NCBI RefSeq assembly: GCF_900659615.1 | Contig: NZ_CAACUY010000011.1 | Coordinates: 1-64,000 of the forward strand | Reading direction: 5' to 3' | Length of the DNA: 64,000 nt | Source: Actinomadura fibrosa | Lineage (GTDB): Bacteria; Actinomycetota; Actinomycetes; Streptosporangiales; Streptosporangiaceae | In this document: piece by piece, positions 7,890 through 42,958 of the stretch | Layout of the letters: each line of letters begins with the position of its first letter | Position numbering within the stretch: position 1 is the first letter of the stretch | Translations under genes and position numbers: made by a program | The notes under the pieces: model-generated | What the model saw: the letters and a program-made list of their open reading frames with translations, nothing else | The model's database searches: none | What the model was told of the DNA's origin: nothing

Positions 7890-10800
7890 ATGAGGCGCAC
7901 GCCGTTCGGGCGCGGCAGAGGCCGTCGCAGGAGACTCGCACACCGACTCACCCCCGTCGTGGCCGCCGCGGCGCTCCTGATCGGAACGGTCGCGGCCGCG
8001 CCGGCGGGCGCGACCCCGAAGGCGCCCGCGCCGGGCGGCGCCGTCGACGTCTACAGCGGCGAGCTGACCACCGACCAGGTGACGCTGCTGAACCGGTCCG
8101 GCGTGGACCGAGAGGACGTCGCCTTCGGCAAGGGCAAGGGCGACCTCGTGCACGTCGAGGCGGTCCTGAACACCAGCGAGGTCGCCGCCCTCACCAAGCA
8201 GGGCCTGCGGCTGACCCTGAAGAAGACCGGCGGCAAGGACCTCAAGGCGCGCACCGCGGCGGCGCCCACGGTGTTCCGCCCGTACAGCGGCGCCGGGAAC
8301 ATCCACGAGGAGCTCCTGCGGGTCGCCGCCGACCATCCGTCCATCGCCAAGGCCGTCGACATCGGCACGAGCATCCAGGGCAAGCCGATCACCGCGGTGC
8401 GGGTCAGCAAGGGCGTGGCGACGCTCCGGGACCGCACCCGGCCCGTCGTGATCTACCAGGCGACGCAGCACGCGCGCGAGTGGATCACTCCGGAGATGGT
8501 GCGGCGGCTGCTGCACCACTACGTCGAGGGCTACGGCACCGACCCCGAGCTCACCAGGATCGTCGACACGACGGACCTGTGGTTCATCCCCGTCGTGAAC
8601 GTGGACGGCTACGACCTCACGTTCCAGGACGGGTTCCGGCTCTGGCGCAAGAACGCGCACGACAACAACGGCGACGGCCGGATCACCGCGGGCGACGGCG
8701 TGGACCTCAACCGCAACTTCACCTACAAGTGGGGCTACGACAACGAGGGCTCGTCGCCGAACCCGGCGGGCGAGACCTACCGCGGCACCGCGGCGGCGTC
8801 CGAACCGGAGACGAAGGCGCAGATCGCGCTCTACCGGCGGCTCCGCCCCACCTACCTGATCAACTACCACTCGGCGGCCGAGCTGCTGCTGCACGGCGTC
8901 GGGTGGCAGGCGCTCACCCGCAGCCCCGACGACGTGATCCACGACGCGCTGCTCGGCGACATCGACCACTCCGCGGTGCCCGGGTACACGCCCGAGCTGG
9001 GCGCCCAGCTCTACACGACCAACGGCGACACCGACGGCGAGGCCGACAACAAGCACGGCGCCCTGTCGATCACGCCGGAGATGGCGACCTGCGTGACCGC
9101 GGCGAACACGTTCCCGGACGACGCGTGGGAGCCCGGCGACTGCGGCAGCATCTTCGAGTTCCCGGACGACGAGCGGCTGATCGCCAACGAGTTCCGCAAG
9201 AACCTGCCGTTCGCGCTGTCGGTCGGCAAGTCCGCGCACACCCCCGACAACCCCGTCTCGGCCGTCGGGCGCACCGCCGCCGACTTCGAGCCGGACGCGT
9301 TCGCCACGTCCTACGGGTCCACGCAGGAGGCGGCCTCCTACATCCGCCGTTCGCTGCGCGGCAAGGAGCTCAACTACCGGATCAACGGCGGGCGGGTCCG
9401 CCACGCGGACGTCCGCGAATGGCGCGGCGGCGAGCGGTACGGCGACGAGAACCACCTCTACTACGGCGAGTACCGCGGCAAGGTCAGGGGGCAGCGGCCC
9501 GGTGACAGGGTCGAGGTCTGGTTCACCGGGTCCAAGGGGCGGACGCGGGTCGAGAGCAGGCACTTCACCTACACCGTCCGCGACCAGGGCAGGGCGGACG
9601 TCCTGGTGGTCGCCGACGAGGACTACAAGGGCGTCAACCCGACCTACCCGGCCGGGACGAACGCGCCCAGGTACGGGCAGCAGTACGCCGACCTCGTCAA
9701 GGCGGCCGGGCACCGGGCCCTCGTCTGGGACATCGACAAGGACGGCGTCCCGCACGACCTCGGCGTGCTGAAGCACTTCAAGGCCGTCGTCTGGTACCTG
9801 GGCGACAACCGCCTCACCCAGGACGCGGCGGACGACCCCGTCCGGACCTACCTCGGCAACGCCCCGGACTCGCAGGTGGCCGACCGGGCGAAGGACCTGG
9901 TGCTGTCCGTCCGCTCGTACCTCAACGAGGGCGGGAAGCTGCTCCACACCGGTGAGACGACCGGCTACAACGGTCCGCTGTCCCGGCTGAACGGCGGCGG
10001 GATCTACTTCGGGCTGAAGGGCCATCCGGAGCGCCCGTGCGTGGTCAGCGGCAACTTCCGCGACGACTGCGAGCTGCTGTCGGACGACTTCTTCCAGTAC
10101 TACCTGGGCGCCTACGACCGGCAGCGGGTGGGCGCGCCGACCCGGTTCACCGGGGCGGGCAGGCCGTTCGACGGCGTCAACGCGTCCCTGAGCGGCACCG
10201 CCTCCAACCCGCTGAACGAGGCGGGCGGGTTCCAGGTGACCTCCACGGTCCTGCCGAAGGCGACGTTCCCGCAGTTCGACAGCTGGAAGGCCGGCGACTA
10301 CCAGGGCGCCGCGGCGCCCACCGAGCCGATCGAGGGCCAGTGGTACGTGGCGGGCCCGCACCAGGACGCCCTGTACCGGCGGCTGACCCGGACCGTCGAC
10401 CTGTCCTCGGTCACGGCCGCGCAGGCCCCGGCCCTCCAGGCGCAGCTGTCCTACAGCACCGAGACGGGCTTCGACAACGTGATCCTCGAAGCGCACACCG
10501 TCGGAGCCGACGACTGGACGACCCTGCCCGACAAGGGCGGGCGGACCACCACCGCCGTACCGACCGAGTGCGAGCAGGGTTACCTCCTCGCCATGCACCC
10601 CTTCCTGACGCACTACCTCACGGGCGGGAACCCCTGCCGGAACACCGGGTCGTCCGGCCAGTGGAACGCCCTGACGGGCAACTCCAACGGCTGGGTGCCC
10701 GTGAGCTACGACCTGTCGGCCTACGCGGGCAAGCGGGTCGAGGTGTCGATCAGCTACGTGAGCGACCCCGGCACCGGCGGGACCGGGCTGTTCATCGACG

Positions 10801-11060
10801 ACACCAAGGTCACCACGACCGGCGGGCAGATCGACGCGGAGGGCTTCGAGACCGGGCTCGGCCCCTGGGCCGTCCAGGGCGCCCCGGCCGGGAGCCCCGG
10901 CAACGCCTCGGAGTACGTCCGATCCCAGGCGCTGATCGACTCCGTCTCGTCGGTCGCCACCCGGGACACCGTCCTGCTCGGCTTCGGCGTCGAGCAGGCG
11001 GCGACGCCGGCCGAGCAGCGGACCCTGGTCGCCAGGGCCCTGAAGCACCTGCTCGGCTGA
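7890..11060 (+). CDS. Secreted M14-family zinc carboxypeptidase with large C-terminal extension
   Basis: 1056 residues; GGAGG at 7880-7884 fixes the ATG. An Arg-rich N-terminus leads into a hydrophobic segment ending PAGA, a Sec or Tat export signal, so the enzyme is extracellular. After a propeptide-like region comes the M14 domain: zinc ligands H194 and E197 in THAREW and H327 in NYHSAAE, the substrate-binding DLNRNF motif, and the likely catalytic Glu E397 in ITPEMA. The domain removes C-terminal amino acids from peptides. The remaining ~600 residues hold a GATase-like alpha/beta segment (RADVLVVADEDYKG onward) and a beta-rich module with GLFIDDTKV near its end, like the C-terminal domain of immune-inhibitor-A-type secreted proteases. 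It is monocistronic, followed by a strong hairpin. Confidence 0.93.
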   Translation: MRRTPFGRGRGRRRRLAHRLTPVVAAAALLIGTVAAAPAGATPKAPAPGGAVDVYSGELTTDQVTLLNRSGVDREDVAFGKGKGDLVHVEAVLNTSEVAALTKQGLRLTLKKTGGKDLKARTAAAPTVFRPYSGAGNIHEELLRVAADHPSIAKAVDIGTSIQGKPITAVRVSKGVATLRDRTRPVVIYQATQHAREWITPEMVRRLLHHYVEGYGTDPELTRIVDTTDLWFIPVVNVDGYDLTFQDGFRLWRKNAHDNNGDGRITAGDGVDLNRNFTYKWGYDNEGSSPNPAGETYRGTAAASEPETKAQIALYRRLRPTYLINYHSAAELLLHGVGWQALTRSPDDVIHDALLGDIDHSAVPGYTPELGAQLYTTNGDTDGEADNKHGALSITPEMATCVTAANTFPDDAWEPGDCGSIFEFPDDERLIANEFRKNLPFALSVGKSAHTPDNPVSAVGRTAADFEPDAFATSYGSTQEAASYIRRSLRGKELNYRINGGRVRHADVREWRGGERYGDENHLYYGEYRGKVRGQRPGDRVEVWFTGSKGRTRVESRHFTYTVRDQGRADVLVVADEDYKGVNPTYPAGTNAPRYGQQYADLVKAAGHRALVWDIDKDGVPHDLGVLKHFKAVVWYLGDNRLTQDAADDPVRTYLGNAPDSQVADRAKDLVLSVRSYLNEGGKLLHTGETTGYNGPLSRLNGGGIYFGLKGHPERPCVVSGNFRDDCELLSDDFFQYYLGAYDRQRVGAPTRFTGAGRPFDGVNASLSGTASNPLNEAGGFQVTSTVLPKATFPQFDSWKAGDYQGAAAPTEPIEGQWYVAGPHQDALYRRLTRTVDLSSVTAAQAPALQAQLSYSTETGFDNVILEAHTVGADDWTTLPDKGGRTTTAVPTECEQGYLLAMHPFLTHYLTGGNPCRNTGSSGQWNALTGNSNGWVPVSYDLSAYAGKRVEVSISYVSDPGTGGTGLFIDDTKVTTTGGQIDAEGFETGLGPWAVQGAPAGSPGNASEYVRSQALIDSVSSVATRDTVLLGFGVEQAATPAEQRTLVARALKHLLG

Positions 11061-11091
11061 CCTGAAGGGAGCGGAAAGCTCCCGCAAGCGG

Positions 11092-11124
11092 AAGGCCCCG
11101 GCTGCCTCCACCGGCCGGGGCCTT
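11092..11124 (+). terminator. Hairpin terminator after the carboxypeptidase gene
   Basis: Perfect 11-bp stem AAGGCCCCGGC (11092-11102) with GCCGGGGCCTT (11114-11124) and an 11-nt loop, 32 bp past the stop. There is no T-tract, as is usual in actinobacteria. Confidence 0.8.
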
Positions 11125-11609
11125 CATCATGCGTCCGCCGGCCCGGGTGCCCGTGCCTCGAACCCGGCACCGGTCCGGCACGTGTACGTGTCACCAGGGG
11201 GCCACGACTTGGGGATCTGTTGGTGATGTGATTGACGCCACGCAACCTTTAGACCGTTCCCATACGTCTTACTTGACGGGAACACCACTGACGAGTGGCA
11301 GCGCCTGATCGGGGAGGCCCGCGACGTCCCGGGCCGCCGGGGTGCGCTCCGGCGCCGCCGACCCGCGCGATCCTCTCGGCCCCACGTATCGCGAGGCCGA
11401 GTCCCTCATGATGCCGGCGCTCCTCCGGGAGCGGCGCGATGCCGCGGAACGCCTTCCGCCCCACCGCACCCCGAAGGCCGGCTCCGAACCCGTCGGGAAC
11501 GGTGGCACGTACCACTGGCACGGGGGGCGGTTCGTCCGCCCGGTCCGCGCGCGCCCCCGAACGCGCGCCAGAAGACAGGCCCGTCACGGGTCCTGACATA
11601 CGGGGAGCG
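11125..11609. other. Intergenic leader region upstream of the SigR-like gene
   Basis: About 485 bp with no supported separate gene. The frame of the downstream sigma factor stays open back to an ATG at 11439, so part of this stretch may be translated as an N-terminal extension. I looked for the SigR autoregulatory promoter (GGAAT, 18-19 nt, GTT) and found GGAAC half-sites but no correctly spaced GTT. The part around 11205-11290 is less GC-rich and is the likeliest place for a promoter. Confidence 0.4.
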
Positions 11610-12254
11610 ATGATGACCGCCGCAACGAGGCCCGTCGGCCGGAACGCCGGCGACACGAGAAGCACCGGCACGGCGAAGGTCGGCGCCGGGAGCGCCCGCC
11701 GGGCGGGGAGCGCCGAGCGCTACGAGCGCGACGTGCTCCCGCTCGCCGACCCGCTGTACGCCAGCGCCGTGCGGATGACCCGCAACCCCGCCGACGCCGA
11801 GGACCTGGTGCAGGAGACGCTGGCCAAGGCCTACGTCAACTTCCACCAGTTCCAGGAGGGCACGAACCTCAAGGCGTGGCTGCACCGGATCCTCACCAAC
11901 AACTTCATCAACACCTACCGCAAGAAGCAGCGGGAGCCCCAGCGCGCCGGCTCCGAGGAGCTGGAGGAGTGGCAGATCGCCCAGGCCGAGTCCAGCTCGG
12001 AGGGGTTCAGGTCCGCCGAGGCCGAGGCCCTGGACCGCATCCCCGACTCCGGCGTCGTGGACGCGCTGCGGGCCCTGCCGAAGGAGTTCCGGGACGCGGT
12101 GTACCTCGCCGACGTCGAGGGCTACGCCTACAAGGAGATCGCCGAGATGATGGGTACCCCCATCGGCACGGTGATGTCCCGGCTGCACCGGGGCCGCAAG
12201 CAGCTCCGCGAGGCGCTCGCCGACCACCGCCGGTCCCACGTCCTGGCCGCCTGA
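11610..12254 (+). CDS. SigR/RpoE-like ECF sigma factor (ECF12 type)
   Basis: 214 residues from the ATG at 11610 (a second ATG at 11613 fits the GGGGAG site slightly better). Region 2 ([51 protein letters not shown]) and region 4 ([45 protein letters not shown]) match Streptomyces SigR closely as I remember it. SigR directs the thiol-oxidative stress response. In SigR loci the zinc anti-sigma RsrA is normally the next gene. Here a terminator and a protease-inhibitor gene follow, and no HxxxCxxC protein is encoded nearby. The frame is open upstream to 11439, which would allow a longer isoform of about 57 extra residues. A SigH/SigE paralogue is the alternative identity. Confidence 0.9.
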
Positions 12255-29175: not shown

Positions 29176-29258
29176 GCGGGCTCCCTTCGGTCGGTGGTGT
29201 GTCGTCCCGAGATGTCCGTCGGCGCGCCCATGTCTACAGCCCGATGTGTCCCGGCTGG

Positions 29259-29278
29259 TCAGGGACTTTTGGCCCTGT
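29259..29278. promoter_or_regulatory. DosR/DevR-like binding box
   Basis: The sequence contains AGGGACTTTTGGCCCT (29261-29276), an imperfect palindrome that matches the GGGAC-TTTT-GGCCC pattern of DosR/DevR boxes known from mycobacteria and Streptomyces. Its centre is about 42 nt upstream of the predicted transcript start at 29311, the position of an activator that overlaps the -35. It is not confirmed experimentally, and no devRS genes are in the window. Confidence 0.6.
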
Positions 29279-29298: not shown

Positions 29299-29304
29299 TA
29301 GGGT
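29299..29304 (+). promoter_or_regulatory. -10 box TAGGGT of a leaderless promoter for the glycosyltransferase operon
   Basis: TAGGGT ends 6 nt before the GTG at 29311. The expected -35 position has no consensus (TGTCCA) and is next to the DosR-like box, which fits an activator-dependent promoter. Confidence 0.5.
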
Positions 29305-29310
29305 GCCCGG

Positions 29311-30279
29311 GTGCGGGTGGTTGTGACGGGGGCGGCGGGGTTCATCGGGAGCCATATGGTCGATGCGCTCGGTGCGGCGGGGCACGAGGTGCTCGCCGTG
29401 GACGCGCCTGCGCGTTCGCTGGCGCCGGACGTGGCGTGGCGGAACTGGGGCGGGGTGCGGACGGCGCCCGGGGTGACGGCCGTGGAGGCCGACCTGGCGG
29501 TGGACGATCTGGAGCCCCTCGCCGCGGCGGACGTCGTCGTCCATCTCGCGGGGCGGCCGAGCGTGCGGACGTCGTGGGGGGCGGGGCGCGCGGTGGCGGA
29601 GCGGGACAACGTGCGGGCGACGGGGCGGCTGCTCGCGGCGTGTGCGCGGCGGCCCGCGGGGCGGCGGCCGAAAGTGGTCATCGCGTCGAGTTCGTCGGTG
29701 TACGGGTCGGCGGGGAACAGGCCTAACCGTGAGGACGATCCCCTGCATCCGGCGAGCCCGTACGCGGCGAGCAAGGTGGAGGTCGAACGGCTGGCCGTGT
29801 TGGCCGCGGACGATGGGGTGCGCACGGTGCTGCTGCGGTACTTCTCGGTGTACGGGCCTCGGCAGCGGCCGGACATGGCGTTCCACCGGTTCGTCGAGGC
29901 GGCCTTGGACGGCAGGCCGCTGCCGGTGTTCGGGGACGGGCGGCGGTCGCGGTCGTTCACGCACGTCCGGGACGTGGTCGGGGCGACGCTCGCGGCGGCC
30001 GGGGCGGACCTGCCGTCCGGGATCGCGATCAACGTCGGCCATCACGAGCCGGTGGCGGTGCGGGCGGCGATCGGGATGCTGACGGACGTGCTGGGGGTGC
30101 GGCCGGAGATCAGGCGGGAGGAGCCCGTGGCGGGCGACGCGCGGCGGACGTGGGCGGACACCGGGCGGGCGGCGCGGCTGCTCGGCTGGACGGCGGGGGT
30201 CGGTCCGGCGGAGGGGCTCGCCGACCAGATCGCCTGGCACCGGTCGCTGCGGGTGCGGGAGGGGGTGCGCGTCGGGTGA
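29311..30279 (+). CDS. NAD-dependent nucleotide-sugar epimerase/dehydratase (SDR)
   Basis: 322 residues. The N-terminal Rossmann motif TGAAGFIGSH binds NAD(P). The active-site Ser lies in ASSSSVYG and the YxxxK pair in SPYAASKVEVE. LRYFSVYGPRQRPD is typical of UDP-sugar 4-epimerases and dTDP-glucose dehydratases; the exact sugar cannot be read from the sequence. The start is a GTG without ribosome binding site, consistent with a leaderless transcript. It is the first of six genes that overlap or nearly touch, and it probably supplies the activated sugar for the transferases that follow. The next gene starts inside its stop codon (GTGA). Confidence 0.92.
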   Translation: MRVVVTGAAGFIGSHMVDALGAAGHEVLAVDAPARSLAPDVAWRNWGGVRTAPGVTAVEADLAVDDLEPLAAADVVVHLAGRPSVRTSWGAGRAVAERDNVRATGRLLAACARRPAGRRPKVVIASSSSVYGSAGNRPNREDDPLHPASPYAASKVEVERLAVLAADDGVRTVLLRYFSVYGPRQRPDMAFHRFVEAALDGRPLPVFGDGRRSRSFTHVRDVVGATLAAAGADLPSGIAINVGHHEPVAVRAAIGMLTDVLGVRPEIRREEPVAGDARRTWADTGRAARLLGWTAGVGPAEGLADQIAWHRSLRVREGVRVG

Positions 30280-31445
30280 GGCATCGGGCGGCGTATCTGG
30301 CGTTCGACCGGTTCCCTTCCAGCAAGGGGTCGGCGGTCCATATCGCGCAGATGGCGGACGAGCTGTTCGGGTTCTTCGGCGGCGGCCTGCTGGGCGTGCT
30401 CGGCGGCGGGGACCTGCCGCGGTACCAGCGGGAGGGCGATCGGGAGGTGGCCCGGTTCGACGCGCGGATCCCGAACCTGCTGGACCGGGCGGAGGCGTTC
30501 TCGGGGTGGGCGGCCGATCATCTGGATCCGCATCTCGGGACGCTGGAGGTCGTGCACGTCCGGGATCCGTGGAGCGCGCTGCCCGCGGTGACCGCTCCGG
30601 GGCGGCGGCACCGGGTGGTGTACGAGGTCAACGGGCTGCCGTCGATCGAGATGGGCCATACGTGGCCGTGGGCGTCGCCGGCGACGCTCGGCAAGGTCCG
30701 TGAGCTGGAGCGCTTCTGCCTGGAGCGCAGCGACGCGGTGGTGGTGCCGTCCCGGGTGATCGGCGGCGCGGTCCGCGGGCTCGGGGTGCCGGAGGGCAAG
30801 ATCCATCTGGTGCCGAACGGCGCTGACGTACCGGACCGGCCCGCACGGCCGGAAGGCGCCCCTGAGCGCTACCTCATCTACGTGGGCGCGTTCCAGCCGT
30901 GGCAGGGGCTGGACGTGCTGATGCGGGCGTTCGCGCGGCTCGCCGATCTCGACGGGCTGCGGCTGGTGGTCTGCGGGTCCGTTCCGGAGCGGCGCGCGAA
31001 GCCGGTGCGGCGGCTGGCGGAGCGGCTCGGCGTCGCGGAGCGGGTCGACTGGCGGTTCACGCTGCCGCACGCGGAGGTCGCGGCGTGGCTCGCGCACGCC
31101 GAGGTGTCGGTGGCGCCGCTGACGGGGTGCGCCCGCAACCTCGACCAGGGCTGCGCGCCGCTGAAGGTGATCGAGTCGATGGCGGCGGGCGTGCCGGTGG
31201 TCGCCTCGGACCTTCCGGCGGTGCGGGAGCTGATGGCGGACGGGGAGCACGGGCGGCTCGTCCCGGCGGACCGTCCCGCCGAGCTGGCCCGCGCCGTGCG
31301 GATCCTGCTGGAGTACCCGGACGAGGCCGCCGCGATGGGCGGCCGGGCGCGGCGCCGGATCGAGGACGGGCTGACCTGGGCGCGGTCCCGGGCGGGGCTG
31401 TCCGCCGTCTACCGTGCCCTCTACCCTGCCAGCGCAGCCCGATAG
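30276..31445 (+). CDS. GT4-family glycosyltransferase
   Basis: 389 residues starting with GTG in a 4-bp overlap with the epimerase stop. It has the GT-B fold: an N-terminal acceptor domain (AYLAFDRFPSSKGSAVHIAQMADEL) and a C-terminal donor domain with YVGAFQPWQGLDVLMRAF, HLVPNGADVP and the EX7E-like stretch CAPLKVIESMAAGVPVVASDLPAV. These are signatures of GT4 retaining transferases that use nucleotide sugars. No membrane helix is present, so it acts on the cytoplasmic face. The product is presumably a step of the same glycan as its neighbours. Confidence 0.92.
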   Translation: MRHRAAYLAFDRFPSSKGSAVHIAQMADELFGFFGGGLLGVLGGGDLPRYQREGDREVARFDARIPNLLDRAEAFSGWAADHLDPHLGTLEVVHVRDPWSALPAVTAPGRRHRVVYEVNGLPSIEMGHTWPWASPATLGKVRELERFCLERSDAVVVPSRVIGGAVRGLGVPEGKIHLVPNGADVPDRPARPEGAPERYLIYVGAFQPWQGLDVLMRAFARLADLDGLRLVVCGSVPERRAKPVRRLAERLGVAERVDWRFTLPHAEVAAWLAHAEVSVAPLTGCARNLDQGCAPLKVIESMAAGVPVVASDLPAVRELMADGEHGRLVPADRPAELARAVRILLEYPDEAAAMGGRARRRIEDGLTWARSRAGLSAVYRALYPASAAR

Positions 31446-31459
31446 GTGGTGGTGTCGTC

Positions 31460-32188
31460 ATGTTCTGGCGCAAGCAGCGCGCGGCGATCGAGAGGTTCCA
31501 TCCGCTGCACCGGGCGCTCGTCCTGGAGGGCGGGTTCTCGGTGTCGCTGCGGCGGGACGACTGGGAGCCGGTGATCCAGAGCCTCGCCGGGCACGCGCAG
31601 CACGTGCGGCGGCGCAAGTGGGCACTGCCGGTCCGGGCGCAGCGGGTGATGGTGCCGCTGCTGCGGGTCCTCGCGGCGGACATGCGGCGGGACGGCGTGC
31701 TGTCGGTCGCGGCGGACATGCGCGGGCCGGACGCCCCCGGCAAGGCGGGGCCGCAGCACGACCTGCCCGCCCGGCGCCCGGTCCTGTCGGTGAAGCAGTG
31801 GTACACGGTCGACCCGTGGCTGCGGATGCGGGCGGAGCTGCGCGACGGCAGCGTGCTGGAGCTGTCGGTCACCGAGCGGCGGCGGAACCGGCGGATCCGC
31901 AAGAGGAACCCGCGCGGCAAGATCAAGATCAAGCAGAAGTCGAAGTCGGTGCAGGTCGTGCAGGTGGTGCGGCGGCTGCCGAAGGACGCGGCCGTCCGCC
32001 GGCCGGGCTCGCCGCCGCCGCCGTGGGTGCGGGTGCGGGTGAAGCAGGGGTCGCGGCTGGTGATCCGCGCGACCGCGAAGGTGGCCGGGGAGCAGGCCGA
32101 GGAGCAGCTCACCGAGGGCATCCTGCACGTGACGACCGAGCCGTTCCGGTGGACGCCGCCGGGCGCGGCCGTGAGGGGGGCCCAGTGA
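31460..32188 (+). CDS. Basic protein of unknown function embedded in the glycosyltransferase operon
   Basis: 242 residues from the ATG at 31460. No signal peptide or membrane helix. It opens with MFWRKQRAAIERFHPLHRALVLEGGFSV, has a central segment HDLPARRPVLSVKQWYTVDPWLRMRAELRDGSVLELSVTE and a very basic stretch (RRRNRRIRKRNPRGKIKIKQKSKS). It ends in alternating beta-like segments (WVRVRVKQGSRLVIRATAKV). I do not recognise a family. The alternating strands plus basic patch suggest binding to an anionic partner such as a lipid-linked phosphosugar or nucleic acid. It starts 14 bp after the GT4 gene and overlaps the next gene by 4 bp, so it belongs to the operon. Confidence 0.75.
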   Translation: MFWRKQRAAIERFHPLHRALVLEGGFSVSLRRDDWEPVIQSLAGHAQHVRRRKWALPVRAQRVMVPLLRVLAADMRRDGVLSVAADMRGPDAPGKAGPQHDLPARRPVLSVKQWYTVDPWLRMRAELRDGSVLELSVTERRRNRRIRKRNPRGKIKIKQKSKSVQVVQVVRRLPKDAAVRRPGSPPPPWVRVRVKQGSRLVIRATAKVAGEQAEEQLTEGILHVTTEPFRWTPPGAAVRGAQ

Positions 32189-32547
32189 CGAGCCAGGTGA
32201 ACCGCTGCACCGTGACCACCGGGTTCTTCGTGCTCGGGCGCTGCGGGCGGGCGGCGGTGGCCGCCTGCGGGCAGTGCGGGCGGCCCGTCTGCGCCGAGCA
32301 CGCCACCGGGGCGCTCTGCCCGGAGTGCGCGCTCGCGCAGGGGTACGCGCCGCAGGACCCGCACGACCCGGCGTGGGTCCGCGGGTACCGGCGGCGGCAC
32401 TACGAGCGCAGCTCGCAGACCTACAACGACGCCTACTGGTACTCGTCGTTCGACGAGTACGACCGCGGCGCGTTCAACCCCGGCGACGAGTACTCCTACG
32501 GCGGCGGCGACTTCGACGACGACGGCATGGACTTCGTGGACAGCTGA
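32185..32547 (+). CDS. Small B-box-like zinc-binding protein with acidic tyrosine-rich tail
   Basis: 120 residues. GTG start in the GTGA overlap with the preceding stop. Cysteines at 8, 20, 28, 31, 36, 45 and 48 and His 39 form a CxxC...CxxH...CxxC arrangement (CGQCGRPVCAEHATGALCPEC) resembling a B-box or cross-brace zinc domain. The second half is Asp/Tyr/Gly-rich and ends in DFDDDGMDFVDS, so it carries strong negative charge. The acidic tail could pair with the very basic protein encoded just before it. No family is recognised beyond the zinc fold. The following ATG overlaps its stop by one base. Confidence 0.75.
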   Translation: MTSQVNRCTVTTGFFVLGRCGRAAVAACGQCGRPVCAEHATGALCPECALAQGYAPQDPHDPAWVRGYRRRHYERSSQTYNDAYWYSSFDEYDRGAFNPGDEYSYGGGDFDDDGMDFVDS

Positions 32548-33662
32548 TGGCGCGCGTCCTGTGGATCACCGAGCACTATCCGCCGAGCCAGGGCGGGATG
32601 GCGCAGTCGTGCGACCGGATCGTCCGGGGGCTGCGCGGCGCCGGGGCGGAGGTGGACGTCGCGCACCTGACCCGGCGGGCCCGGCCGTGGGGCGTGGCGC
32701 GCGAGCACGGCGGGCGGCTGGTCACCGCGCCGCTCGGCGACGACTCGGAGCACGCGCTGCGCCGGCTCTGGACGGCGCTCACCGCGGAGGGCCTCACCGC
32801 GGGGACCTACAGCCATGTGGTCGCGTTCGGCGGCACGTACGCGATGCTCGCGGCGCCCGTCCTCGCGCGGCTGCTGCGGGCGCCGCTGGTCACGCTGCTG
32901 CGCGGCAACGACATCGACGTCGGCGCGTTCTCGCTGCGGCGGCGCGGCGTGCTGGTGGACGCCCTGCGCGCGTCCGCCCGCGTGTGCGTCGTCGCCCGGT
33001 CGCACGCGCCGCTGGTGACCGCGCTGGTCCCGGAGGCGGAGACCGTGTTCGTGGCGAACGGCATCGACACGTCGCGGTGGCGGGTGCTGCCGTCCGAGCG
33101 GGAGCGGGCCCGCGCGTGGCGGGCCGCGAACGTCGCGCCGGGACGCCGGACGATCGGGCTGATCGGCCAGCTCAAGACGAAGAAGGGCGTGGGGTTCCTC
33201 CTGGACGCGCTCGCGGCGTCCGGGCACGCCGAGGCGTTCCACCTGCTGCTCGTCGGGGAGGTCGAGGAGGCCGTCACGGCCCGGCTGCCCGCCGTGGCGC
33301 ACTCGCTCGTCCCGTTCCTTGAGCGGTACGACCTGCCCGCGGTGTACGCGTCCTGCGATCTGGTGGCGCTGCCGTCGTTCTACGACGGGATGCCGAACGT
33401 GGCGCTGGAGGCGGCGGCGCTCGGCGTGCCGCTGCTCGCGTCGGACGCGGGCGGGCTCGCCGACCTCGCGGACGACGAGATCGGCTTCACCTTCCCCGCG
33501 GGGGACGCGCACGCGTGCCGGGCCGCGATCGACCGGGCCGCGCGGGCGGGCGAGGAGGAGCTCGCGAAGCTGGGCGCGGCGGGCGCCGAGCGGATCGCCC
33601 GCGACTTCACCCCGGACGCGGAGACGGCCGGGTACCTCGCCGTCCTCGACGCCGTCACGTGA
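32547..33662 (+). CDS. GT4-family glycosyltransferase
   Basis: 371 residues; TGATG overlap with the preceding gene. N-terminal RVLWITEHYPPSQGGMAQSCDRIVRGLR is the classic GT4 opening. The donor domain has ANGIDTSRWR, IGLIGQLKTKKGVGFLLDAL and the motif SFYDGMPNVALEAAALGVPLLASDAGG (EX7E with both Glu positions in the stretch). Cytoplasmic. It is distinct in sequence from the GT4 at 30276-31445, so two different linkages are likely made. The next start (GTG) lies inside its stop codon region. Confidence 0.92.
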   Translation: MARVLWITEHYPPSQGGMAQSCDRIVRGLRGAGAEVDVAHLTRRARPWGVAREHGGRLVTAPLGDDSEHALRRLWTALTAEGLTAGTYSHVVAFGGTYAMLAAPVLARLLRAPLVTLLRGNDIDVGAFSLRRRGVLVDALRASARVCVVARSHAPLVTALVPEAETVFVANGIDTSRWRVLPSERERARAWRAANVAPGRRTIGLIGQLKTKKGVGFLLDALAASGHAEAFHLLLVGEVEEAVTARLPAVAHSLVPFLERYDLPAVYASCDLVALPSFYDGMPNVALEAAALGVPLLASDAGGLADLADDEIGFTFPAGDAHACRAAIDRAARAGEEELAKLGAAGAERIARDFTPDAETAGYLAVLDAVT

Positions 33663-34465
33663 TCCTCTGCTACGCGCGGGGTGACGGGCTCGGGCACCTC
33701 ACCCGGCTCCGGGCGGTCCTCCACACGCTGGGGCGGGACGGTGAGGTCGCCGTCGTCACGGGTTCGCCGTTCGCCGCCGATCCCCGGGTCGCGGACGGCT
33801 GGCTCGTCCGAGACGACCTTTCCCGGGCGCTCGCGGAGCTGGAGCCCGACGAGCTGATCGTGGACGCGTTCCCCGCCGGTCTCAAGGGCGAGCTGGGGGC
33901 GCTGCCCGCCGTGCCGTCCGGGACCCGCGTCACGCACCTGGCGCGGCTGCTCCGCTGGGACGCCTACCGCCCGCTGCTGTCCGCCGTCCGGCCGCGCTTC
34001 GACCGGACGTTCGTCCTCGAACCCCTCGATCCGGCGCACGAGGCGTACCTGCGCGCCGTCTCGGACGAGGTCGCGCCGCTCGCGCTCACCGACCCGCCGT
34101 CCGAGCCGCTCGACGCCGAGGGCTGGATCATCGTGCACGGCGGACCGGACGCCGAGATCCGCGAGCTGGTCGCCTACGCCGCGGACATGGCCGCCGCGGA
34201 GCGCGCCCGCCCGCCGATGACACTGGTCGCGCCGCGCCGCCCGGACGGCCTGCCCGCCGGGATCGCGCACCTCGACGCCTACCCGGCCTGCCCGCCCGGC
34301 TCGCGCGTCGAGCGGATCGTCACGGCGGCCGGGTTCAACTCCGTCCGGCAGTACGGGCCGTGGCGCGACCTCCACCGGATGCTGCCGTTCCCCCGCAGCC
34401 TCGACGACCAGTTCGCACGCGCTCGCCGGGCTCGGTCCGCCGCTGCTAGAAGTACGTCGAGGTGA
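33659..34465 (+). CDS. MurG-like (GT28-type) glycosyltransferase, compact
   Basis: 268 residues, GTG in a 4-bp overlap. The N-terminus ILCYARGDGLGHLTRLRAVLHTLG is the glycine-rich loop of GT28/MurG-like enzymes. The C-terminal part keeps IVTAAGFNSVRQYGPW and RMLPFPRSLDDQFARARR, equivalent to the donor-binding 'aGynt..E......p.p...DqqF.rA' region. It is shorter than MurG (about 360), and the middle part is reduced. It is the last gene of the operon, and its end overlaps the convergent serine hydrolase gene by 20 bp. Confidence 0.8.
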   Translation: MILCYARGDGLGHLTRLRAVLHTLGRDGEVAVVTGSPFAADPRVADGWLVRDDLSRALAELEPDELIVDAFPAGLKGELGALPAVPSGTRVTHLARLLRWDAYRPLLSAVRPRFDRTFVLEPLDPAHEAYLRAVSDEVAPLALTDPPSEPLDAEGWIIVHGGPDAEIRELVAYAADMAAAERARPPMTLVAPRRPDGLPAGIAHLDAYPACPPGSRVERIVTAAGFNSVRQYGPWRDLHRMLPFPRSLDDQFARARRARSAAARSTSR

Positions 34466-41199: not shown

Positions 41200-42174
41200 A
41201 TGAGTCACCCGGAACGGCTCGGTTCTCCGGGTGGCGAGTCGGTCGGCACGATCGCGGAGCCTCCTCACGTGAACGAGAAGCTGTCCGACTACGCCGCTCG
41301 GTATGGGCTGAAGCAGAGCGCGGCGCGCCCCCCGCTGCGCAAGTACATCCAGGATGTGTGGGCTCGGCGCAACTTCATCTGGGCGTTCGCGTCGGCCAAG
41401 AACATCTCGATGTACACCGAATCGCGGCTGGGCCAGCTCTGGCAGCTGCTGACCCCGCTGCTCAACGTCGCGGTCTACTTCCTGATCTTCGGTGTGCTGC
41501 TGAACACCAAGCGCGGTGTCCCGGACTTCATCCCGTTCCTGGTCACCGGCGTCTTCATGTTCGGCTTCACGCAGCGGTCGATCACCTCGGGCTCCAAGTC
41601 CGTCGGCGACAACCTCTCGCTGATCCGGGCGCTGCACTTCCCGCGGGCCACGCTCCCGCTGGCGATCGCGGTCGTGGAGCTCCAGCAGCTGCTGCTCTCG
41701 CTGGTCGTGCTGCTCGCCATCGTGCTCGCCTGGGGCGAGCCGATCACCCCCCACATGCTGCTGTTCGTCCCGGTCGTCGTGCTCCAGCTGATGTTCAACG
41801 TCGGCGCGAGCCTGATCGTGGCGCGGCTCGGCGCGTTCAACCGCGACATCACCCAGCTGCTGCCCTTCGTCATGCGGACCTGGCTGTACCTCTCCGGTGT
41901 GATCTTCAGCCTGCCGTCGCTGATGAAGGCGGGCTCCAAGCTCGACCAGCACCCCTGGGCCGCCGAGCTGCTGAAGGCCAACCCCGGCTACGTGTACGTC
42001 GAGCTGAGCCGGCACGTCATGCTCGGCAAGTACCGCGACTACGTGCACAGCGAGCCGGGCGTCCCGCACTCGACGACCCAGCTCTGGCTCTACGCGTTCG
42101 CCTGGGCCGGGGTCGCGCTGGTCGCCGGATTCATGTTCTTCTACCGTGCCGAGGAGCGTTACGGCCGTGGCTGA
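41200..42174 (+). CDS. ABC-2 polysaccharide/teichoic acid exporter permease (Wzm/TagG-like)
   Basis: 324 residues. A cytoplasmic N-terminal helix region (KYIQDVWARRNFIWAFASAKNI) is followed by six transmembrane segments with the family patterns LGQLWQLLTPLLNVAVYFLIFGVLL, RNFI and LFNRDITQLLPFV-like loop (AFNRDITQLLPFVMRTWLYLSGVIF). The family exports lipid-linked O-antigen or teichoic acid across the cytoplasmic membrane. Its partner ATPase overlaps the 3' end by 8 bp. The closeness of a lipid-phosphate phosphatase/kinase (divergent) and of a glycosyltransferase operon 7 kb away makes a glycopolymer substrate likely. Confidence 0.92.
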   Translation: MSHPERLGSPGGESVGTIAEPPHVNEKLSDYAARYGLKQSAARPPLRKYIQDVWARRNFIWAFASAKNISMYTESRLGQLWQLLTPLLNVAVYFLIFGVLLNTKRGVPDFIPFLVTGVFMFGFTQRSITSGSKSVGDNLSLIRALHFPRATLPLAIAVVELQQLLLSLVVLLAIVLAWGEPITPHMLLFVPVVVLQLMFNVGASLIVARLGAFNRDITQLLPFVMRTWLYLSGVIFSLPSLMKAGSKLDQHPWAAELLKANPGYVYVELSRHVMLGKYRDYVHSEPGVPHSTTQLWLYAFAWAGVALVAGFMFFYRAEERYGRG

Positions 42175-42958
42175 CACCAAGGTCCGCGGGGCCGTGGAGA
42201 TCGACCCCACCCGGGAGCCGATCGTCGTCGTCGACGACCTGCACATCATCTACCGGGTGTTCGGGGCCGGCGGGAAGGGCAACGCCGCCAGCGCCTTCTC
42301 CCGCGTCCTCCGCCGCCAGAACCGCCCGTCGATGACCGAGGTCCACGCGATCAAGGGCCTGTCCTTCGTCGCCTACCGCGGCGAGGCCGTCGGGATCATC
42401 GGCACCAACGGCTCCGGCAAGTCGACGCTGCTGAAGGCGATCGCCGGGCTGCTGCCCCCGCACAGCGGCGGCGTCTACACCGACGGCCAGCCGTCGCTGC
42501 TCGGCGTCAACGCGGCCCTGATGAAGGACCTCACCGGCGAGCGCAACATCGTCCTCGGCTGCCTCGCGATGGGCATGTCCCCGCAGGAGACCAAGGCGAA
42601 GTACAAGGAGATCGTCGACTTCGCCGGGCTCAAGGAGGGGTTCATCCAGTACCCCATGCGGACCTACTCGTCCGGCATGGGCGCCCGGCTCCGGTTCGCG
42701 ATCGCCGCGGCGAAGACCCACGACGTGCTGCTGATCGACGAGGCCCTCGCCACCGGCGACGCCAAGTTCAAGGTCAAGAGCAAGCGCCGGATCGAGGAGC
42801 TGCGCCGCGAGGCGGGCGCCGTGTTCCTCGTCGCCCACCAGCTCGACGTGGTCAAGGAGACCTGCGACCGCGTCATCTGGATCGACGAGGGCCGCATGCA
42901 CATGGACGGCGACCCCGACGAGGTCATCGCCGCCTACATCGAGGCCACCGGCAAGTAG
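42167..42958 (+). CDS. ABC polysaccharide exporter ATPase (Wzt/TagH-like)
   Basis: 263 residues from a GTG at 42167 with GAGGAGCG upstream, overlapping the permease gene by 8 bp. Walker A is GTNGSGKST, the signature is the Wzt/TagH-type YSSGMGARLRFAIA, and Walker B is VLLIDEALATGD, with VFLVAHQ as switch. The signature beginning YSSGM instead of LSGGQ is diagnostic for polysaccharide exporters. There is no C-terminal sugar-binding domain. A small hairpin follows (CCCGG-AGAA-CCGGG, about 42969-42982). Confidence 0.93.
   Translation: MADTKVRGAVEIDPTREPIVVVDDLHIIYRVFGAGGKGNAASAFSRVLRRQNRPSMTEVHAIKGLSFVAYRGEAVGIIGTNGSGKSTLLKAIAGLLPPHSGGVYTDGQPSLLGVNAALMKDLTGERNIVLGCLAMGMSPQETKAKYKEIVDFAGLKEGFIQYPMRTYSSGMGARLRFAIAAAKTHDVLLIDEALATGDAKFKVKSKRRIEELRREAGAVFLVAHQLDVVKETCDRVIWIDEGRMHMDGDPDEVIAAYIEATGK

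Follow-up and report, generated by a model that had tools for sequence, protein, structure and literature searches.

The type of gene cluster to which the locus described here belongs is already known, and several described systems resemble parts of it. Glycan loci of the Wzx/Wzy- or ABC-dependent types are recognized by their polymerase, flippase or exporter genes. In the WbdA/WbdD O9a complex, a partner protein organizes a sugar polymerase at the membrane (PMC5082667). A second study ties prokaryotic B-boxes to membrane proteins, namely, to their folding, stability and proteolysis (PMC4506424), and a third connects the helix-grip protein AhfA/DUF2505 with envelope biogenesis (PMC9671496). 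We analyzed a stretch of 64,000 nucleotides (the window) that is part of contig 11 in the 10.9-Mb genome of Actinomadura fibrosa. It carries six adjacent genes on the + strand, here called p1 to p6, in which an epimerase and two GT4 glycosyltransferases are encoded together with three proteins for which no Pfam or NCBIfam match passed the threshold (p3, p4 and p6).

Layout of the six-gene block

The open reading frames confirmed the near-continuous overlaps that the earlier note had described. The junctions p1/p2, p3/p4 and p5/p6 overlap by 4 bp and p4/p5 by 1 bp; p2/p3 is the sole junction with a gap, of 14 bp. The 4-base overlap of p5 and p6 recurred in 52 of the 64 related loci measured, with start codons chosen by us. 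At the 3' end of the block, p6 and a convergent beta-lactamase-like gene share 20 bp (34446-34465).

Pfam placed p1, p2 and p5 above cut-off, in line with the initial reading of an epimerase and two GT4 enzymes. The first gene, p1 (29311..30279), encodes a 322-aa extended SDR, an NAD-dependent sugar epimerase/dehydratase (Pfam Epimerase, 3.1e-48). Its motifs TGxxGxxG and S..YxxxK, which are typical of extended SDR proteins, were found in 57 and 58 of 59 sequences, respectively (window included). Both p2 (30276..31445; 389 aa; Glyco_trans_1_4, 1.5e-29) and p5 (32547..33662; 371 aa; Glyco_trans_1_4, 1.7e-23) have Pfam GT4 domains above the gathering score; no NCBIfam model reached its cut-off among the best 25 for each. 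The family's own motif was exact in 65 of 67 p2 and 53 of 67 p5 sequences, and the first Glu of the catalytic EX7E-type motif is Asp in p5. Mean column identity was 78% for p5 (16 rows) and, on larger sets than these 16 rows, 58% for p3, 53% for p4 and 60% for p6. Internal stops were present in two p1 sequences and one p6 sequence extracted from related loci. No clear membrane segment was seen in any of p1 to p6, the highest 19-residue hydropathy being 1.64 (p5), and the six proteins are therefore most likely cytosolic.

A -10 box, TAGGGT (29299..29304, + strand), lies 6 nt upstream of the GTG of p1 and probably marks a leaderless promoter. Of 86 upstream stretches, 63 had the pattern TA[AG][AG]GT 4 to 7 nt 5' of [GA]TG, against a mean of 0.8 and a maximum of 4 in shuffled sequences; at least one of the stretches (L038) begins at a contig edge. 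Its variants TAGGGT, TAAAGT and TAGAGT stand a few nucleotides 5' of the GTG of the first gene, and this wide occurrence suggests a leaderless transcript. In two loci (L041 and L042), we saw by eye that the promoter and apparent first codons of p1 were retained and ran into p2. Farther upstream of p1, at 29248-29266, is a dyad, GTCCC-N9-GGGAC, a possible operator. A relaxed form occurred in 17 of the 86 upstream stretches, exclusively in the home genus and in 16 cases at -63 or -64; with the dyad confined to these stretches, we rejected it as an operator bound by p3-p4.

Distribution, gene order and loss of the cassette

With tblastn, 67 of the 341 home-family genomes proved to carry p3. They belong to 5 of 68 genera, and the home genus accounts for 54 of them out of its 65 genomes (own genome counted). 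The p3 profile A1 had no match outside the family in samples of 200 genomes of the order and 296 of the class, and the p6 profile matched the own genome alone among 197 class genomes. A pattern-limited scan of named genomes yielded 54 loci in Actinomadura (the majority), Spirillospora, Actinoallomurus, Thermomonospora echinospora and three species of Actinoplanes, a genus of a different order from the home family. All six genes were present in 51 of them, p1 was missing in 2, and 1 lacked p1 and had p3-p4 doubled; these loci mostly coincide with the set of 85 described below. In the genus of one Actinoplanes-type carrier, p3 was found in 19 of 67 genomes. The cassette's carriers, spore-forming bacteria of the soil, number in the dozens and fall into two orders.

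Besides the window, we collected 85 distinct loci, 66 from the family and 19 of the Actinoplanes type (17 fetched and 2 from the named-genome scan). The genes p2-p3-p4-p5-p6 kept the same order and strand in all 85, with p1 in front in 77. Among the family loci, 58 of 66 had all six genes, 7 lacked p1, and 1 lacked p1 and had p3-p4 doubled. Since the order recurs in 66/66 family and 19/19 Actinoplanes-type loci, the operon is not a product of chance. We consider it nearly certain that p1 to p6 constitute a single system. A few matches came in two pieces, namely, p6 in L061 (where it is a single 334-aa ORF), p1 in L207 and p2 in L211, and in L088 and L090 a contig end cuts p6, with the remainder on another contig. 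Extra genes are interposed in some loci. In two Actinoallomurus loci, such a gene lies between p5 and p6 (L063:7496-8080 and L068:7493-8116) and perhaps encodes a lipoprotein, judging by its start. Beta-lactamase-like, YceI and VanW genes flank many loci of the home genus; in other lineages we detected none of them next to the cassette, save for a weak beta-lactamase match (27%) in L208. The six-gene block itself is hence the conserved unit.

Loss was also joint. Of the 341 family genomes, 69 have p6; they comprise every one of the 67 p3 carriers plus two more, G008 and G020. In G008, an in-frame fusion links the front of p2 with the back of p5 (L184:9173-10288), and p6 comes next; we found neither p1 nor p3 nor p4 alongside. 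This hybrid apparently arose by recombination between the GT4 genes that flank p3-p4. G020 holds merely a 3'-end scrap of p6 (23 to 35 residues) next to YceI/VanW, and G029 has an intact cassette plus a 3'-end scrap of p6 elsewhere, beside a beta-lactamase gene (L186:7562-7624). Of the 11 congeners without p3, ten had neither a close p5 nor an intact p6. Only G008 gave a close p5 match (54%), the matches in the other ten being at the level of generic GT4 proteins (best E, 4.5e-12).

Thermomonospora echinospora (L145) has a tandem p3-p4-p3'-p4', duplicated as a pair, and L061 shows the same arrangement (9690-11861), both members of its second pair being less similar to those of the window. This tandem duplication supports p3-p4 as a unit. 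The earlier note had suggested that the two unknown proteins may form a complex organizing or regulating the glycosyltransferases, and had named their occurrence mainly apart from the genes of these enzymes as the contrary outcome. This outcome did not occur: we found p3 and p4 beside glycosyltransferase genes in 85/85 loci, and these genes accompanied every p3 match inspected. Within the genomes searched, the p3-p4 pair was found nowhere outside the cassette. The viral contigs and plasmids searched contained no p3, and a mobile or phage origin was rejected. An anti-phage defense system was likewise discarded (PADLOC match for 0 of 6 proteins), and madurose biosynthesis was dropped, the cassette having no methyltransferase.

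Pfam revealed no polymerase or flippase among the six products, as had been noted from the sequence, and no exporter. An ABC2_membrane and ABC_tran pair does exist at 41200-42958, about 7 kb away, and had been pointed out as a nearby exporter. Near the family loci, both exporter genes were present in 34 of 66, neither in 28 and the permease alone in 4 (some loci being too short). Judging from ORFs, the exporter is kept in G020 and G008, both of which lack an intact cassette, and it was near 0 of 19 Actinoplanes-type loci. We therefore rejected the link between exporter and cassette.

The orphan proteins p3, p4 and p6

The 242-aa protein p3 (31460..32188; 85/85 loci) has no Pfam or NCBIfam match. 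With a net charge of +30 it stands at the 96.6th percentile of 759 ORFs (from 40 of 66 loci, operon genes included). Its AlphaFold2 model (pLDDT, 91.7; pTM, 0.86) predicts a stable alpha/beta domain with a long, strongly basic beta-hairpin (residues 132-172; 31853..31975), which has a net charge of +14 and alternating Lys/Arg. R142, R144, K156, K158, K162 and R171 are invariant in alignment A1 (33 rows). Over six locus pairs, dN/dS was 0.12 to 0.51 for p3 and 0 to 0.43 for p4. The p3 profile gave nothing at E 10 against PDB sequences, and the model gave nothing below E 0.027 in Foldseek and nothing below E 0.015 in a viral fold library. The best VIA-align match was actin capping protein (Z, 7.7; rmsd, 6.6), below the value of 8 near which, according to the tool's note, a match may be a mere common arrangement; we did not accept it as a homologue.

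Downstream, p4 (32185..32547; 120 aa; 85/85 loci) is an orphan protein predicted to bind zinc. Its zinc module (32206..32328) has eight Cys/His ligands (C8, C20, C28, C31, C36, H39, C45 and C48), which predict two zinc ions, as in a B-box or binuclear treble clef. This ligand pattern and a terminal Asp-Ser were present in all 87 copies examined (66 family copies, L070, 19 of the Actinoplanes type and the window). The acidic tail (32467..32544) ends in FVDS and has a pLDDT of <50; the p4 model is poor overall (pLDDT, 62), with 78 to 84 over residues 21-50. All zinc-finger matches in Pfam were subthreshold, the B-box PF00643 matching 1 of 32 members (E, 0.023). The proposed charge complementarity of p3 and p4 stood for p3, which is clearly basic. 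It did not stand in full for p4, whose acidity is moderate (net -7, which places it within the most acidic 7.5% of the 759 ORFs, operon genes included), with its charge in the last 35 residues (net -10). Searching 197 class genomes with the p4 profile, we found 13 other proteins (E, 2.2e-4 to 0.0089), which align at positions 8-63 among the matches listed. In 5 of the 7 loci read, the finger was N-terminal to a protein that, by eye, resembles a rhomboid protease. Relatives of p4, all of them weak, were seen among B-box-like zinc fingers alone. Against PDB sequences, the p4 and p6 profiles gave short weak rows that we took for chance.

The last protein, p6 (33659..34465; 268 aa), had been called MurG-like. 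Its motifs GxGxGHLTR, GxNxVRQ and DDQ, present in 65/65 sequences, recall GT-B enzymes and make it a putative GT-B-like transferase. Every profile test was negative or subthreshold. The best profile matches had E values of 0.13 (Pfam Glyco_trans_1_3) and 0.32 (NCBIfam), the subthreshold matches being to Glyco_trans_1_3/MJ1255, and a profile search of p6 members gave E 0.08 in 1 of 25. Comparison with 29 MurG proteins by hhalign gave a probability of 0.1%, the search with alignment A3 was also empty, and PF13528 had no match in the own genome or in three Actinoplanes genomes. We rejected a MurG/GT28 identity on these profile tests. The p6 profiles are shallow and of low power, and the negative results therefore weigh little either way. 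We regard p6, labeled by motif, as a third orphan alongside p3 and p4.

Functional readings and comparison with known systems

We consider it about an even bet (probability of roughly 0.5) that the locus is one cytoplasmic glycan-assembly cassette in which the p3-p4 pair serves the glycosyltransferases as a dedicated accessory unit. In the mechanism that we infer, from the enzymatic activities to the product, the cassette would build a short glycan in the cytoplasm. An epimerized NDP-sugar would be made or supplied by p1, and sugars would be added in succession by p2, p5 and probably p6. The basic hairpin of p3 would probably lie on the anionic inner face of the membrane or hold the acceptor, and p4 would be a two-zinc adaptor whose flexible acidic tail, with its invariant Asp-Ser, docks on p3 or on a glycosyltransferase. 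The strict gene order, kept across two orders, and the joint loss yield a clear prediction open to testing: p3-p4 should act together with the transferases. Speaking against this reading are the lack of p1 in 8 of 85 loci, the assignment of p6 as a transferase by motifs, the Asp at the first catalytic Glu position of p5, and a cassette without a gene for an acceptor, lipid carrier, polymerase or exporter. The mirror-tree partial correlation of p3-p4 was 0.31, fifth of ten pairs (p2-p5, 0.62; 84 rows, one of which, L070, has a misframed p4), and we discarded the idea of a special signal for this pair. The Actinoallomurus group was not one clade in the p3 tree and was one clade in the other four trees.

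The p3 model also bears on another reading, in which p3 is a START/SRPBCC-like helix-grip lipid binder offering a membrane lipid to the glycosyltransferases, p4 couples it to the enzymes and the product is a glycolipid. After two N-terminal helices, the order of elements is b-a-a-b-b-b-b-b-b-a (short elements omitted), which resembles that of the helix-grip fold. START/PRELI chains appear among the weak VIA-align rows (3qsz, Z 5.0; 5jql, 4.5; 2pso, 4.4), and one report finds that Corynebacterium glutamicum requires AhfA/DUF2505, an actinobacterial helix-grip protein, to synthesize mycolic acids (PMC9671496). However, these Z values are all below 8 and below that of actin capping protein, and PsbP-like and porin-like chains score about equally. 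Moreover, 2pso (E, 0.35) was the sole START row among the best 50 in Foldseek, and 0 of 33 members had an SRPBCC Pfam match at E 0.1. We take the resemblance in the model as a lead and not as membership, and the lipid-binding reading as possible but rather doubtful. It is unlikely that, in addition, the Asp-Ser tail of p4 hands an acceptor lipid held by a basic, helix-grip-like p3 to three cytosolic glycosyltransferases, with p3, p4 and p6 as new families.

The glycan could instead be attached to p4 (or p3) itself, in a self-contained protein glycosylation by analogy with glycogenin. Residues 73-97 of p4, which would be decorated, are Ser/Tyr-rich with Y80, D90, R94 and F97 invariant (32 rows), GT4 genes lie on both sides of p3-p4, and the cassette has no other acceptor. 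Conservation of aromatic residues and Asp is, however, equally compatible with a binding helix, and p3 would be left unexplained; we regard this reading as quite unlikely. A basic hairpin joined to a zinc finger might also suggest a nucleic-acid-binding regulator of the operon, for which the net charge of p3 (+19 to +37 in all 67 copies counted) and the dyad starting at 29248 upstream of p1 could speak. Yet the dyad is limited to the 17 home-genus stretches, and the p4 module resembles the B-box-like fingers of rhomboid-like proteins, which are not known to bind DNA. DNA-binding regulation is accordingly the less likely role, and we hold it to be improbable. Operons can include unrelated genes, and p3 and p4 might be passengers co-transcribed with glycan genes by happenstance; their presence in 85/85 loci over two orders and their joint loss make this extremely improbable.

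Should the accessory-unit reading be true, bacterial glycan assembly would gain an accessory principle, and the locus would point to an undescribed glycan of spore-forming actinomycetes. Within the searches made, the p3-p4 orphan pair, p6 as a further orphan and the cassette in its strict form appear to be new; titles and abstracts, largely from outside subscription journals, included none about the cassette. As for the enzymes, p2 and p5 are members of the GT4 glycosyltransferases (PF13692/PF00534) above cut-off, and no substrate is assigned by the best 25 NCBIfam models for each. The ABC pair in the window is what likens the locus to Wzm/Wzt ABC-dependent glycan loci, from which it differs in that exporter proximity is inconstant (34/66 and 0/19 loci). 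The core CxxC-GRxxC-xx[CH]...CPEC of the bacterial B-box-like treble clef at the N-terminus of rhomboid-like proteins is also found in p4, which shares it with proteins of other actinobacteria that by eye look rhomboid-like (five of the seven loci read). In contrast to the rhomboid-linked form, p4 has no membrane domain, differs in the first ligand pair, and carries both a conserved aromatic segment and an acidic tail with DS at its end. The element order of p3 is possibly shared by AhfA/DUF2505 (PMC9671496); p3 is set apart by its basic character, its pairing with p4 and its tie to a glycosyltransferase cassette. The role proposed for p3-p4 may be likened to that of the partner protein in the WbdA/WbdD complex, with the difference that WbdD is a kinase/methyltransferase with a coiled coil (PMC5082667).
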